Below, in pieces: positions 26,650 to 37,728 of a stretch of DNA of 60,604 nt. The DNA comes from Halococcus hamelinensis 100A6 (GTDB lineage: Archaea > Halobacteriota > Halobacteria > Halobacteriales > Halococcaceae), in contig NZ_AOMB01000012.1 in assembly GCF_000336675.1 (NCBI RefSeq), forward strand, positions 1-60,604, read 5' to 3'. A program made the translations under genes and the position numbers. Position 1 is the first letter of the stretch. The number at the start of each line of letters is the position of its first letter. The notes beneath the pieces are model-generated. The model was given only the letters and a program-made list of their open reading frames with translations. It did not search any database and was not told the DNA's origin.

Positions 26650-27837
26650 TCAGTCTGACGCGTTCTCCTCGCGCCGGGCGGCTTCGGGGCCGTGGCCGTC
26701 GAGGCTGATGATGTTCTCGCGTCCGATCGAGAGCTTCTGGATGCTCCCGTCGTCGTTCATCGTCGAGAGGAGTCGGCTGACCTTCGCCTTCGACCACTCG
26801 GTCTCCTCGACGATCCGGGTCTGTTTCATCCGCCCGCCGTGGCTCCGGAGCAACGCCAGCACGCGGTCGGCGTCGGTCAGCGGCTCCGGCGGCTCGGGGG
26901 ATGCCTCGGGCTCCGGCGACGGCTCCTCGGTCGTCTCGGGCGGCGGGTTGGGGTCGGTGTCCTCGTCCGTGGCCCGCCACCGCGCGAACACCTCCCGCCA
27001 GCCGCGCCGGAGCAGTACGACCCCCCCGACGACCAGCCCGATGACGACGAGCGCGGCGACGGCGAGCCAGAGCGGCGTGAGGTCGCTCGTCGGGTTCGTC
27101 CCGAGGGTCCGTTCGGTGCTGTCGCTCAGCCCGTCACCGTCGCTGTCGGCACGGGTCGGGTCGGTCCCGCGCTGGATCTCGACTCCGTCGCGGATCCCGT
27201 CGCCGTCGCTGTCGGGGTTCTGTGGGTCCGAGCCGTACTTGTTCACCTCCTCGCCGTCGAGGAGGGTGTCGGCGTCCATGTCGCGGTTCGAGACGTTGTA
27301 GCCAGCCTCGACCTCCCGGGTGTTCGTGAGCCCGTCGCGGTCGAAGTCACCGCCGCGTCGGAGAACGGTCACCGGGATCCGCTCGCGGTCGAGCACCGTC
27401 GTGTTGCTCCGGATCGACCGGTTCCTGACCTCGACGACGAGGGTCTGCCGGCCCGTGACGTTGGCCGGCCAGGTGACGTTGGCGAAGTCGACGGTGTCGT
27501 TCGTGCCGCTCGAAAGCGCCAGCGACTCGCACTCGTCGACGAGCGCCCGGTTCGGCCTACCCGGTCGTTGTGACTGGAGGCAGACCCCGTAGTTGCCGTT
27601 CCCGGTGCCGGCCGAACGGTCCGCGACCGTCACGCTCGCGTTGATGGATTCGTCGACCCAGAGATACGTCGACCCGTTGGGGGTCTCGGGGGTGTCGATG
27701 ACGCCGCCGCCGGTTATCGTCACGTCCTCGACCCCGGTGCGCGCCGGCTGCGCACCGACGGGGACGACGGCAATGACGGCGCTCACGAGCACCACCGCAC
27801 AGAGCAGCCCCGCCACGACGCGCGCGCGCTCGCTCAT
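26650..27837 (-). CDS. Membrane-anchored winged-helix protein with calcium-type repeats
   Basis: A 395-aa protein with an unusual layout: signal peptide (residues 1-30), an extracellular beta-rich domain with two Cys (86, 103) and N-glycosylation sites to ~160, Asp-rich thrombospondin-type-3-like repeats (about 164-250; DFDRDGLTN, NPDSDGDGIRDG, ADSDGDGLSDS), one membrane helix (254-277) followed by Arg-rich cytoplasmic residues, a Pro/Glu linker (295-320), and a C-terminal winged helix (321-382; RMKQTRIVEETEWSKAKVSRLL) like haloarchaeal DUF7343 proteins. Read together it looks like a one-component transmembrane sensor-regulator with Ca-responsive outside repeats. That role is inference. It precedes uvrC by 27 nt. 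Confidence 0.85.
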   Translation of the reverse strand: MSERARVVAGLLCAVVLVSAVIAVVPVGAQPARTGVEDVTITGGGVIDTPETPNGSTYLWVDESINASVTVADRSAGTGNGNYGVCLQSQRPGRPNRALVDECESLALSSGTNDTVDFANVTWPANVTGRQTLVVEVRNRSIRSNTTVLDRERIPVTVLRRGGDFDRDGLTNTREVEAGYNVSNRDMDADTLLDGEEVNKYGSDPQNPDSDGDGIRDGVEIQRGTDPTRADSDGDGLSDSTERTLGTNPTSDLTPLWLAVAALVVIGLVVGGVVLLRRGWREVFARWRATDEDTDPNPPPETTEEPSPEPEASPEPPEPLTDADRVLALLRSHGGRMKQTRIVEETEWSKAKVSRLLSTMNDDGSIQKLSIGRENIISLDGHGPEAARREENASD

Positions 27838-28045: not shown

Positions 28046-28441
28046 TTAGGCCGCCATCGTCGTGTTGGTACCGTTCATCATCATGGAAGTGTCTTCCATG
28101 CTGGTACCCATCTCGGTGCCCATTTCGGTCTCTTCCATACCGGTCTCCATGGAGGTGTCTTCCATCATCTCGGTCTCCTCCATGCCGGTACCCATTTCAG
28201 TCTCCTCCATGCCAGTGCCCATCTCGGTCTCTTCCATGCCAGTGCCCATCTCGGTCTCTTCCATACCGGTGGCCATCTCGGTCTCCTCGCCACCGCTCGT
28301 GCCCGCTGCCTCAGTACCGTTCTCACCGCCGCCGCCACCGCCGCCAGAACAGCCGGCGAAGACGAGCATTGTCGCAACGAGACCAACAGCCAACACGCGC
28401 TTTGGGTTCGATTTCAGCGCGTCGATCATTTTGTGTATCAT
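28046..28441 (-). CDS. Methionine/glutamate-rich repeat lipoprotein
   Basis: A 131-aa exported protein. From the ATG at 28441 it has a basic n-region (KSNPKR), a hydrophobic core and lipobox VFAGC (Cys31), then a polyglycine spacer. The mature part is nearly all repeats of a 9-residue unit GMEETEMGT (three close copies plus variants such as MEDTSMET and ATGMEETE), ending in SMMMNGTNTTMAA. About 19 Met are present and no Cys after the lipidated one, with no aromatics. A GTG at 28459 could add six residues. Met-rich repeats bind Cu(I) in some bacterial proteins, but metal binding here is only inferred. It is divergent from the ABC-2 pair. Confidence 0.8.
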   Translation of the reverse strand: MIHKMIDALKSNPKRVLAVGLVATMLVFAGCSGGGGGGGENGTEAAGTSGGEETEMATGMEETEMGTGMEETEMGTGMEETEMGTGMEETEMMEDTSMETGMEETEMGTEMGTSMEDTSMMMNGTNTTMAA

Positions 28442-28474
28442 GCTTTCTGCGTTCTTCACTCATAACCGGGTATC

Positions 28475-28483
28475 ATATAAATA
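28475..28483 (-). promoter_or_regulatory. BoxA/TATA-like element for the Met-rich lipoprotein
   Basis: TATTTATAT on the minus strand is a strong consensus-like TATA. It is centred about 38 nt before the ATG at 28441, implying a transcript start near 28453 and a short leader of about a dozen nucleotides. A start at 28459 would lie upstream of that start site, which disfavours the GTG. Confidence 0.65.
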
Positions 28484-28720
28484 GTCCCATCCGTTCCGCA
28501 CTGTTGCGGACTGTTACGACGCCCGAAGCCGCGTTTTACGTCGGTTTCCGTGAAACAGTCCCGAAACCGTCTGACGTATGACCGACGAAGGTCGTCCCTG
28601 TGATGCCCCCTCGTTCGTGGTCGCCCCGAGGGCCCGGTGTCGTGCCGGTCGGCGGCGTCGGCTATCGGTTCCGACGGGACGATGAAAAAGTTCATAGCGA
28701 CCGACGGAAATCGAACGCAC

Positions 28721-29701
28721 ATGACGGCCATCGAACTCGATGGAGTGACGAAGCGCTACGGCGGCGGGCTGGGCCGCGGTGGCGGGTCGGTCGAGGCGCT
28801 CTCGGACCTCGACCTCCGGGTTCGTGAGGGCGAGATCTACGGCTTCCTCGGGCCGAACGGCGCGGGGAAGTCGACCACGATCGACGTTTTACTGGATTTC
28901 ACGCGCCCGACGGCGGGCACCGCGCGCGTACTGGGTCACGACGCCCAGGAAGAAACCCTCGCGGTCAAGGAGCGCATCGGCGTGCTGCCCGACGGGTTCC
29001 AGACCTACAACCGCCTCACGGGTCGCCAGCACCTCGAGTTCGCGATCGACTCGAAGAACGGCGACGAACGCCCCGAAGCGGTCGCCGAACGCGTCGGCAT
29101 CCCGGACGCCATCGACCGCAAGGCGGGCGGCTACTCGAAGGGGATGACCCAGCGCCTCGTGCTCGGAATGGCGCTGGTTGGCGAGCCCGACCTCCTGATC
29201 CTCGACGAGCCCTCGACGGGGCTCGACCCGACGGGCGCACGCGAGATGCGCGAGATCATCGAGGCCGAGCGCGACCGCGGTGCGACGGTGTTCTTCTCGA
29301 GCCACATCCTCGGCCAGGTCGATTCGGTCTGCGACCGGGTGGGGATCCTCCGGAACGGCGAACTCGTCGCCGAGGACTCGATCGAGGGGCTCCGCGAGGC
29401 CACCGACACCGACGCGACGCTCGTCGTCGAGGTCGACCGGGTCCCCGACGGCGTGCTCGACGAGGTGCAGTCGCTGTCGGCGGTCTCCGATGCCCGTGCC
29501 GAGGGGACCACGATCACGGTCTCGTGTGAGGACACGGCGAAGACGCAGGTCCTCGGGACGATCGAGGATAGCGGTGCGACGGTCGAGGACTTCACCACCG
29601 AGGACGCCTCGCTCGAAGACCTCTTCGTCGCCTACACCGAGGACGGGGGGCCGAACTCGCGACGATCCACCGCCCCCGACGGGACGGAGGTCCGACAGTG
29701 A
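28721..29701 (+). CDS. ABC-2 type transporter ATP-binding protein
   Basis: ATPase half of an exporter, 326 aa. Motifs are Walker A GPNGAGKST (near 45-53), signature YSKGMTQRLVLG, Walker B LLILDEPSTGLD and H-loop FFSSHILGQVD. After the ATPase core, residues ~220-310 form a C-terminal domain common in ABC-2 ATPases (NosF/CcmA-like). The ATG at 28721 is chosen because the family begins MTAIELDGVTKRYGG and upstream codons are poor. The gene's TGA overlaps the GTG of the permease (GTGA, 4 nt), so translation is coupled. It is divergent from the Met-rich lipoprotein, with a 279-nt intergenic region. Confidence 0.92.
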   Translation: MTAIELDGVTKRYGGGLGRGGGSVEALSDLDLRVREGEIYGFLGPNGAGKSTTIDVLLDFTRPTAGTARVLGHDAQEETLAVKERIGVLPDGFQTYNRLTGRQHLEFAIDSKNGDERPEAVAERVGIPDAIDRKAGGYSKGMTQRLVLGMALVGEPDLLILDEPSTGLDPTGAREMREIIEAERDRGATVFFSSHILGQVDSVCDRVGILRNGELVAEDSIEGLREATDTDATLVVEVDRVPDGVLDEVQSLSAVSDARAEGTTITVSCEDTAKTQVLGTIEDSGATVEDFTTEDASLEDLFVAYTEDGGPNSRRSTAPDGTEVRQ

Positions 29702-30543
29702 GTTCGCTCACCGTCGCGAAGAAGGAGTTCCAGGACGCGATCCGGTCGCGGTGGCTGATCGGGCTCACGGTGTTGTTCGTGCTGTTCGCGGGCGGGTTCA
29801 CCCTCGCGCTCCCCTCGCTCCTCGGCCTGCTGGTCGGACCGACCGTCGACACCGCGACGACGAACGTGCTGTTGACCGCCATGGGCGGGTCCACCACGCT
29901 CTTGATCCCGCTGATCGGGCTCGTGGTGGGCTACAAATCGATCGTGGGCGAGCGCGACTCCGGGAGCCTCAAACTCCTGTTGGGGCTGCCACACACCCGC
30001 CGGGACGTGGTAATCGGTAAACTCGTCGGGCGCTCCGCGGTGGTGGCCGTCTCGACGCTCATCGGGTTCGTGGTGGCCGCAGTCGTAGGTGTGGCGGTTT
30101 ACTCGTCGTTCGCGGTCGGGACGTTCCTGACCTACACCGTCCTCGCGGTGGTCCTCGGGGTCGTCTTCATCGCGATCGCGACCGGGTTCTCGGCGGGCGT
30201 GCGTTCGACGACGTGGGCCCTTCTCGGAGCGGGCGGTCTCTACCTCCTGTTTCAGTTCGTCTGGGGATTCGTCCCGGTTATCGTGCGCTACGTGATCAAC
30301 GGCTTCTCGCTCCCGAGCCTCGCCCAGACCCCGAACTGGCAGCTGTTCTTCTCGTTGCTCAACCCCCAGACCGCGTTCAACTCCGCCGCGGCGGCGGTGA
30401 TACCCTCACTCAACGGCATCGCTGCCGCCCTCGACAGCCCGCCGATCTACCTCCAGAACTGGGTCGGGTTCGTGATCCTCGCGGCGTGGATCGTCGTTCC
30501 GGTGGCCCTCGGCTACCTCCGGTTCAACGGCACGGACCTCTAA
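29698..30543 (+). CDS. ABC-2 type permease, NosY-like
   Basis: A 281-aa membrane protein starting at the GTG that overlaps the ATPase stop. It has six predicted helices (about 18-42, 58-80, 108-132, 138-165, 170-195, 250-275) and the ABC-2 pattern: KEFQDAIRSRWLIGL at the N-terminus, GYKSIVGERDSGSLKLLLGLP, and HTRRDVVIGKLVGR in the first cytoplasmic loop. That signature is typical of NosY-type permeases, which in bacteria mature copper sites. No nosD or nosL gene is nearby, so the substrate is open. The convergent ligA stop lies 10 nt away. Confidence 0.9.
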   Translation: MSSLTVAKKEFQDAIRSRWLIGLTVLFVLFAGGFTLALPSLLGLLVGPTVDTATTNVLLTAMGGSTTLLIPLIGLVVGYKSIVGERDSGSLKLLLGLPHTRRDVVIGKLVGRSAVVAVSTLIGFVVAAVVGVAVYSSFAVGTFLTYTVLAVVLGVVFIAIATGFSAGVRSTTWALLGAGGLYLLFQFVWGFVPVIVRYVINGFSLPSLAQTPNWQLFFSLLNPQTAFNSAAAAVIPSLNGIAAALDSPPIYLQNWVGFVILAAWIVVPVALGYLRFNGTDL

Positions 30544-35188: not shown

Positions 35189-35215
35189 ATGGCTGGCGAC
35201 ATATGCACCGTACAC

Positions 35216-36499
35216 ATGAGTGACGCCGAAGGCCGGGGCTTCGGGACGCGCTGTGTCCACGCGGGGCAGGACACGGACGCGGCCACGGGTTCCCGCGCGC
35301 CGCCGCTGTATCAGACCACCTCGTATACCTTCTCGGACGCCGACCACGCCGCCGACCTCTACGCGCTCGAGGCCGAGGGCGACATCTACTCGCGTATCTC
35401 GAACCCAACGATCCGGACCCTCGAACGCCGCCTCGCCGACCTCGAAGGCGGGGTGGGAGCGCTCTGTACCGCCTCGGGGATGGCGGCGCTCGACGCCGCG
35501 ACCCTCGTGCTCTGCGGGGTGGGCGACAACGTCGTGAGCGCCGCGTCGATTTATGGGGGCACTCACGCGTACCTCTCACACACCGCCCGCAGGCGAGGTA
35601 TCGAGGCCCGATTCGTCGACACCCTCGACCCCGCCGCCTACGACGAGGCCATCGACGAGGACACCGCCTACGTCCACTGCGAAACGATCGGCAACCCCTC
35701 GCTGGTGACGCCCGACCTCGACGCCATCGCCGAGGTGGCCCACGACAACGGGGTCCCCCTCCTGGTCGACAACACGTTCGCGACGCCCGCGCTCTGCCGA
35801 CCGCTCGAACGCGGCGCGGACCTCGTCTGGGAGTCCACCACGAAGTGGCTCCACGGCTCCGGGACGACGATCGGCGGTGCGCTGGTCGACGGCGGCTCGT
35901 TCCCGTGGGCCGAGTATCCCGAGAAGTACCCCGAGATCGGCGGCGAGAACCCCGCCTTCCACGGTCGCAACTTCGCCGAGAGCTTCGGCGAGCGCGCGTT
36001 CACCGCCGCCGCCCGCCAGCGCGCGGTCCGGAGCCTCGGCGACGGCCAGTCGCCCTTCGACGCGTGGCTCACCCTGCAGGGGCTCGAAACCCTCGACCTC
36101 CGAATGGAGCGCCACTCCGGGAACGCCCACCGGGTCGCTGCGTTCCTCGACTCGCACGACGCGGTCGAGTGGGTCGCCTATCCCGGTCTCGAAAGCCACG
36201 AGACCCACGACAGCGCCCGGGAGTACCTCGACGGCGGGTTCGGCGGCATGGTCGCCTTCGGCCTCGCCGGGGGCTACGAGGCCGGCAAGAGCCTCTGTGA
36301 GGACGTCGACCTCGCGAGCTTCCTCGCGAACGTCGGCGACGCGAAGACCCTCGTGATCCACCCCGCGAGCACGACCCACGCCCAGCTCTCGGCGGCGGAC
36401 CAGCGCGCTTCCGGCGTGACCCCCGACCTCGTGCGGCTCTCGGTCGGGATCGAAAACGCCGAAGATATCATCGCCGACCTCGAAGGGGCGATAGAATGA
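35216..36499 (+). CDS. metY: O-acetylhomoserine aminocarboxypropyltransferase (sulfhydrylase)
   Basis: Makes homocysteine from O-acetylhomoserine and sulfide in methionine synthesis. The 427-aa Cys/Met-metabolism PLP enzyme has [11 protein letters not shown] at its N-terminus, [44 protein letters not shown] and the Schiff-base Lys in [16 protein letters not shown]. The MetY length (slightly over 420 aa) and the C-terminal [11 protein letters not shown] favour sulfhydrylase over gamma-synthase (about 380 aa). Its last 4 nt (ATGA) overlap the metX start, indicating translational coupling. metX supplies the O-acetylhomoserine substrate. Confidence 0.94.
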
Positions 36500-37728
36500 C
36501 GCGCGAGACGGTTTCGCTCGGGGCCTTCCGCTTCGAGTGCGGCGAGTCCATCCCGGAGCTCGAACTCGCCTACGAGTCCTACGGCGAGTTCACCGGCGAC
36601 AACGCCGTCCTGGTCTGTCACGCCCTCACCGGCAGCCAGCACGTCGCGCGAGCGGGGCGGAGCGCGACGGACGGATCGAACGGACCGTCGGAAGCGCTGC
36701 GCGGCGGCATGGACCAGGCCCGTGCGTGGTGGGACGACGTCGTCGGCGCTGGCAAGGCCATCGACACCACCGAGCGGTTCGTGGTCTGTGTGAACGTCCC
36801 CGGCTCCTGTTATGGTTCCTCGGGGCCGGCCTCGACGGACCCCGAGACGGGCGAACCGTATGGAACCGACTTCCCCGCGGTTACCGTCGCGGACTGGACG
36901 CGTGCCCAGCGCCGGCTGCTCGACCACCTGGGGGTCGACCGCCTGAAGGCGGTGGTCGGCGGGTCGGTCGGCGGGATGAACGCGCTCGACTGGGCCAAAC
37001 GCTATCCCGAGATGGTCGACCGGGTGGTGCCCGTCGCGGCGGCCGCGCGGCTCGACCCCCAGTGCGTGGCGCTCGACGGCGTCGCACGCCGGGCGATCAC
37101 GACCGACGACGACTGGAACGGCGGCGACTACTACGGTGGGAAAGAGCCCGACGACGGCCTCGCGCTCGCCCGCCAGATCGGTCACGTGATGTACCTCTCG
37201 AAGGACTCGATGGAGCGGAAGTTCGGTCGGCGCGCCGCGGGCCGGGGCGCGGCTCGCGACGACTTCCCCGTCGACCCCGCCGCCGGCTTCTTCCCCTACC
37301 GGGACGTCGAGTCGTATCTCGACTACCAGGCCAGGAAGTTCGTCGAGCGCTTCGACGCCAACAGCTACCTCTACCTCACCCGCGCGATGGACAACTACGA
37401 CCTCGCGGCGGGCTGTGCCTCCGAGACCGACGCGCTCGCGAACTTCGAGGGCGAGGTGCTCGTGATGAGCTTCACGGGCGATTGGCACTTCACCACCGAG
37501 CAGTCCGAGTCGCTCGCCGAGGCCTTCCGGACGGCGGGCGTCGACGTCGCCCACCACGTCGTCGACTCCGACCACGGCCACGACGCCTTCCTCGTCGAAC
37601 CCGAGAACGTCGGCCCGCCGCTCCGGGACTTCCTCGATTCGGGGGTCGCCGGCCGCGCCGTCACCGACACCGAGGCCGAGACGGGGCCCGCGTTCGCGCC
37701 GGTCCACGCCAGCCTGTTCGGCGACTGA
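36496..37728 (+). CDS. metX: Homoserine O-acetyltransferase
   Basis: Acetylates homoserine using acetyl-CoA, feeding metY. The 410-aa alpha/beta-hydrolase has [11 protein letters not shown] (oxyanion region), the nucleophile Ser157 in [19 protein letters not shown], and the charge-relay end [18 protein letters not shown] with Asp and His. A short insert after the nucleophile region ([14 protein letters not shown]-like) is normal. Specificity for acetyl rather than succinyl follows the MetX fold but is not proven here. Starts by ATGA overlap with metY. No other methionine genes are in the window. Confidence 0.94.

Follow-up and report, generated by a model that had tools for sequence, protein, structure and literature searches.

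A Met-rich repeat lipoprotein of Halococcus hamelinensis with a conserved locus and promoter element: a possible acidic surface brush

Exported proteins rich in methionine (Met) have been described in several settings. MrpX and BcrX, short low-complexity proteins of the MXKDX-repeat type, are described as sacrificial Met-rich sinks for HOCl (PMC8315932; for MrpX also PMC5748585), and in mrpX-yedYZ and bcrXQP an MsrP/MsrQ-type partner is linked to the Met-rich peptide gene (PMC8315932). The Mets-motif copper proteins (Ctr1-type and bacterial Met-rich proteins) carry Met clusters in exposed disordered segments, as MxM or MxxM and usually with His or Cys. Among haloarchaeal lipoproteins, sub-threshold relatives of DUF7537 and proteins with DUF4397 domains have acidic Thr/Asn-rich tails, while the Lpp/OprI alanine-zipper proteins (NF040598) are made of heptads.

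The lipoprotein considered here is encoded in a window (the whole stretch of DNA analyzed) of 60,604 nts from H. hamelinensis 100A6. Like MrpX and BcrX, it is predicted to be exported and is short, of low complexity, Met-rich and possibly a sacrificial sink for oxidants. In contrast to them, it has no MXKDX repeat (the mature chain has 0 Lys, as in 15/15 orthologues), is lipid-anchored and archaeal, has no msrPQ/yedYZ beside it, and has orthologues that lose the Met. It resembles the Mets-motif proteins by its Met clusters in a presumably exposed disordered segment but differs from them by other Met spacings, by the absence of His and of any Cys except Cys31, by a locus without copper gene context and by a high-chloride habitat. 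With the haloarchaeal lipoproteins it shares the lipobox, a Gly-rich start, NxS/T sites and an acidic Thr-rich disordered tail, whereas here the mature protein consists of the tail alone, with Met as its sole hydrophobic residue larger than Ala. An Lpp-like coiled coil was rejected, because TEAEENL heptads occur only in the orthologue of Halobacteriales archaeon QS_4_69_34 (E 7.4e-5 against NF040598, at 23.2 versus 43 bits, below the cut-off), while the window protein has Gly/Thr-broken 9-mers without heptads and is predicted to be disordered.

The gene (28046-28441, reverse strand, recognized from its ORF and composition) encodes 131 aa, from an ATG at 28441 to a stop at 28046. Its reading frame extends without a stop to a GTG further upstream, at 28459. 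The position of the TATA-like box TTTATA (28477-28482, reverse strand), from which transcription would be expected to begin downstream of this GTG, makes the GTG unlikely and, together with the alignment of orthologues, supports the ATG. The signal peptide (residues 1-30, KRVLAVGLVATMLVFAGC) has the features expected of exported lipoproteins, a positive N-region, a hydrophobic helix and a lipobox (generally [LVI]-[ASTVI]-[GAS]-C near residue 20-35), here LVFAGC, with Cys31 as the predicted lipidation site, and the mature chain has 101 aa. The export route is ambiguous between Tat and Sec, with KR or RR preceding the helix. The mature chain contains 19 Met, 26 acidic residues (25.7% Asp+Glu), 20 Thr (19.8%) and 22 Gly (21.8%), and is entirely devoid of Lys, Arg, His, Phe, Tyr, Trp, Leu, Ile and Val; its only Cys is the lipidation site. 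The preliminary description of this DNA, which proposed a lipoprotein with a lipobox Cys31, about 19 Met per 100 residues, no other Cys and no aromatics, was thus borne out, although it had not remarked on the absence of Leu, Ile and Val. The Met content is far above the window background: among 32 other genes, the mean share of Met is 1.0%, no gene exceeds 4 Met per 100 residues, and Met makes up 4.9% of Met+Leu+Ile+Val. The binomial probability of at least 19 Met in 101 residues is about 1e-18, an indicative value only, since the residues of a repeat are not independent and relatedness is ignored.

In an AlphaFold2 model made from a 15-row alignment, the signal helix (residues 2-31) is the sole formed structure, with a mean pLDDT of 52.9 and values of 41-50 over the mature chain. 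A search of the PDB returned two matches at E 0.3-0.4, which is chance level. The match to Pfam DUF7537 (PF24381) reached 15.8 bits against a gathering cut-off of 31.7 and covered mostly the signal peptide and the start of the tail, and the NCBIfam model NF058595 (lipo-invert tail) gave 18 bits against a cut-off of 37. The literature searched on Met-rich haloarchaeal proteins contained nothing direct.

Orthologues were collected from 15 loci, comprising nine in the genus of the window, one in QS_4_69_34 (locus L055) and five in a genus of another family (g19, loci L112-L116); genes in the fetched loci were called with a simple script, and the synteny in g19 was established from five genomes of a single genus. 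Three of the nine tails in the window's genus are near identical, hence the genus contributes some four or five independent lineages. In the alignment of all 15 orthologues, the invariant residues are P13, R15, V16, A23, L26, A29, G30 and C31. The gene order at the 15 loci is uvrC, a TSP3/DUF7343 gene, the lipoprotein gene, an ABC-2 pair where present, and ligA. All 15 tails lack Lys, Arg and aromatics, are 24-35% acidic and carry 1-11 NxS/T sequons each. In the window's genus, the tails of 86-115 residues hold 16-19 Met and no Leu, Ile or Val in 9/9 genomes, that is 162 Met versus 0 Leu/Ile/Val in total, which upholds the reading of a Met-specific, lipid-anchored repeat protein and indicates that Met itself is held within the genus. 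The repeat units nonetheless differ (MEETEM; EMEGTEMMEET; EETTMMED; EETTAMEE...NMSGNM). The tail in QS_4_69_34 consists of TEAEEN[LVM] heptads and contains 8 Met as well as 5 Leu/Val, and the g19 tails are rich in NDTVG and GNE/GEE, with 0-3 Met and 4-9 Leu/Ile/Val. Because g19 orthologues in the same slot are almost free of Met, Met is not the conserved property; because Met-only tails are confined to the window's genus, the Met-only tail is a genus-level innovation on an older acidic, sequon-rich lipoprotein. On this comparison of sequences, the position of the gene and its promoter are older than its Met. The comparison separates what is kept (anchor, charge, disorder, locus and promoter) from what varies (repeat unit and Met content), for a type of haloarchaeal surface protein that is usually written off as low complexity.

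With moderate confidence, we read the protein as a lipid-anchored, disordered, strongly acidic surface lipoprotein that would act as a brush or spacer, hydrophilic and flexible, loaded with Met in one genus, there perhaps as an oxidant sink. A brush or spacer fits all orthologues, the Met-poor ones included, and is for this reason taken as the base function; the disorder, and the occurrence of similar tails as linkers or in other lipoproteins, also favor it. The brush would sit outside the haloarchaeal membrane, held by its lipid anchor, and would likely be glycosylated at NxS/T and perhaps at Thr sites. Selection would keep a composition of Glu/Asp, Thr, Gly and Asn without positive or aromatic residues, as well as the anchor, the place beside the TSP3/DUF7343 gene and the promoter element, while repeat units turn over. 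In the window's genus, Met would have taken the place of all Leu, Ile and Val and so supplied many densely spaced thioethers. Their likeliest additional role would be that of a sacrificial sink for surface oxidants. Two observations count against this reading: a pure spacer leaves unexplained why Met, and not Leu or Val, is the sole hydrophobic residue in nine genomes, and no secreted Met sulfoxide reductase that could recycle a sink was found among the MsrA and PF00174 proteins checked.

Similar tails occur in other lipoproteins. In a paralogous lipoprotein of the window's genus (L068:4875-5912, G044:C14), DUF4397 domains stand behind a Thr/Glu/Ala/Met linker, and its gene has a related promoter element. 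Leu, Ile and Val are likewise absent from the tails of L067 and L072, two more Met/Thr/Glu lipoproteins of the genus. Lipoproteins with similar tails were also found in genus g7. Three loci of genus g62 (L073, L074, L075) encode Glu/Thr/Met/Asn-rich lipoproteins at a different genomic position, suggesting a possible repeated origin of such tails.

It is possible, though we consider it considerably less probable than the brush, that the Met tail is a surface oxidant sink like MrpX, with Met as the main purpose of the protein instead of an addition to a brush. Its thioethers would be oxidized by hypohalous acids, peroxide or singlet oxygen, sparing other proteins, a reaction that should also work in brine. 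The retention of 16-19 Met without any Leu, Ile or Val in nine genomes, while the repeat units turn over, is what such a role would predict, and the chain is predicted to be disordered and is presumably solvent-exposed. Against it stand the 0-3 Met of the same-slot g19 orthologues, the absence of an MsrP/MsrQ-type partner from the window locus, and an MsrA that is cytoplasmic by sequence. None of PF00174, PF01625 and PF01641 was found among the Pfam-scanned genes of the window; in the genomes checked, MsrA has no signal peptide, and PF00174 proteins with readable N-termini are not obviously secreted. A full oxidant-repair cassette was therefore rejected: PF00174 and PF01625 proteins were found in the genus, but they are not obviously secreted and do not lie near the locus. 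Within the brush reading, the Met is most readily explained by an oxidant-sink role added in the window's genus, which would work like that of MrpX and BcrX. Should the Met prove functional, archaea would offer an example of a surface shield loaded with thioethers, one amenable to a simple genetic test.

The constant neighbor of the lipoprotein gene is the TSP3/DUF7343 gene (26650-27837, reverse strand, Pfam), which lies downstream in the same direction and beside the lipoprotein gene in 15/15 loci. Its product has TSP3 (Ca-type) repeats on the secreted side, one TM segment and a cytoplasmic DUF7343/IclR-type HTH, and looks like a membrane-spanning one-component regulator. Upstream of the lipoprotein gene, a few bases before the TATA-like box (TTTAT/TTTAA is conserved upstream of all 15 orthologues), are three 10-bp direct repeats GNAACNGTNC (GNAAC[A/G]GTNC), spaced one helical turn apart. 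The window copies are GTAACAGTCC GCAACAGTGC GGAACGGATG, with the core at 28493-28517 on the reverse strand (GTAACAGTCC GCAACAGTGC GGAAC(GGATG)). The element is conserved in 15/15 orthologues, at the same place in L055, L066, L069, L070, L077-L081 and L112-L116, and thus spans two families although the tail is not conserved across them. Its second spacer is one base shorter in four genomes (G209, G253, G157 and G236), and degeneration is strongest in g19. The window element is the single exact match in its own genome, and within the genus a strict element with a TATA box behind it was found at the lipoprotein locus alone (4/10 genomes); looser copies precede two paralogous lipoprotein genes (L067/L071 and L068). 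At no more than one mismatch, the element occurs in 29/381 Halobacteria genomes, compared with 0 for the reversed control, and in other haloarchaea it lies upstream of PadR-like, UbiA-like and secreted-protein genes, with no lipoprotein there. No description of this 10-bp repeat element was found in the literature searched. Its 10-bp period offers a concrete handle on the control of surface lipoproteins in haloarchaea.

The DUF7343 HTH encoded next door is the obvious candidate reader of the element. It would bind the three 10-bp repeats and adjust the brush according to a signal on the TSP3 side, e.g., Ca2+ or the state of the envelope. The gene stays beside the lipoprotein gene even where the ABC pair is missing, the element is present at 15/15 promoters with a single exact copy in the window's genome, and in the sister genus g3, which has the TSP3 gene and no lipoprotein, no element was seen at the locus. 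However, the element precedes unrelated genes elsewhere and may thus be recognized by a different, common factor. Relatives of TSP3/DUF7343 are found in nearly the whole class (389/391 Halobacteria genomes), and the contact between HTH and DNA is itself conjectural. We therefore consider this regulatory reading unlikely. The combined proposal of a Met-only "redox brush", an archaeal counterpart of MrpX with its own three-repeat promoter element read by the TSP3/DUF7343 regulator, seems to us quite improbable.

The tail might also be a disordered linker whose 27-bp unit grew by slippage, with Met devoid of function. Repeat units do vary among close relatives and are not kept outside the genus, and such tails are common in haloarchaeal lipoproteins. 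The array itself, which the preliminary description had noticed as a 27-nt tandem repeat, was recovered by Tandem Repeats Finder at 28166-28288 (4.6 copies, 88% matches, score 183), with more, decayed copies at 28108-28210; the whole Met/Glu/Thr region of 27-bp units (GMEETEMGT), which grade into variants, covers 28108-28288 on the reverse strand. The 9-residue repeat GMEETEMGT is thus real, but the strict 9-mer spans just part of the chain. The preliminary description suggested that copy number may vary between strains; between species it does vary, most of the window array being absent from the closest relative (G250, 82% identity). A DNA search for pairs of closely spaced MEET units gave matches in 6/9 genomes of the genus, always at the lipoprotein locus, and elsewhere two single matches in 381 genomes versus one in the reversed control. 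Pairwise comparison of the five MEETEM units revealed 16 synonymous and 0 non-synonymous differences (pS 0.80), meaning that the protein, not the DNA, is held, and that the array is under protein-level constraint. Drift is further opposed by the absence of Leu, Ile, Val, Lys and Arg from about 880 residues in nine genomes, although ATG and GAG are one base away from codons for them, and by the conservation of locus and promoter. Neutral drift is hence very unlikely.

The preliminary description, whose analogies were bacterial although this is an archaeal lipoprotein, linked the Met to copper through the neighboring exporter: the tail would bind Cu(I)/Ag(I) by Met clusters and possibly deliver or sequester metal with the ABC-2 pair. 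This pair consists of a DrrA-like ABC ATPase (28721-29701, forward strand, PF00005) and an ABC-2 permease (29698-30543, forward strand, PF12679), and the lipoprotein gene is indeed divergent from it in the window. The density of Met fits such a role, and the permease belongs to PF12679, a broad family that also includes NosY. The pair adjoins the lipoprotein gene in 12/15 loci: between it and ligA in 6/9 genomes of the window's genus (G000, G250, G209, G253, G157 and G236), in QS_4_69_34 and in 5/5 g19 genomes. Homologues next to the pair, on which the proposal depended, therefore exist. However, the pair is a facultative neighbor. It is missing from the lipoprotein locus in G044, G073 and G323 (3/9), and conversely it is present with the TSP3 gene in two g3 genomes of the window's family (G339 and G303) in which no lipoprotein was found. 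In a tree of the ATPase, the relocated copies of G044, G073 and G323 group with the genus' own copies, which points to a probable relocation of the pair rather than its loss; no lipoprotein lies near the relocated pairs of G073 and G323. Pair and lipoprotein are thus separable in both directions, and their adjacency is old but dispensable. A conserved ORF of 91 aa (VWLVERDLDQRNLVTLVYATPDG...) separates the lipoprotein and ABC ATPase genes in 3/5 g19 genomes (L113:3153-3428, L115:3439-3714 and L116:3413-3688).

The Met spacings do not fit copper binding either. The window protein has one MxM and no MxxM, its Met being spaced as MM, MxxxM and MxxxxM, and 8/9 members in the genus have 0-1 MxM and 0 MxxM (G073 has 4 MxxM); His and a second Cys are absent. 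The Pfam scan, which covered all but a few of the 40 called window genes, found no copper, nos or Msr family. Unlike the NosDFY-type ABC system for copper-site maturation, the PF12679 permease has no nosD, nosL or nosZ near it among the scanned genes, and no NosY model of NCBIfam scored above cut-off. In addition, multimolar chloride in the growth medium should, judging from stability constants, outcompete thioether sites of micromolar affinity for Cu(I). With g19 orthologues almost free of Met as well, the link to copper and the exporter is not supported: after synteny and the counts of Mets spacings it was rejected as the main reading, and even as a partial role it is the least probable of those weighed here. 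Coupling to DNA repair, to which the flanking uvrC and ligA might point, was rejected because it has only conserved gene order behind it and no sign in the protein. Elsewhere in the window, at 35189-37725 (forward strand) and 7 kb from the Met-rich lipoprotein, a PLP enzyme of Cys/Met metabolism is encoded in tandem with an alpha/beta hydrolase; the two are likely involved in methionine biosynthesis, and their proximity is probably a coincidence.
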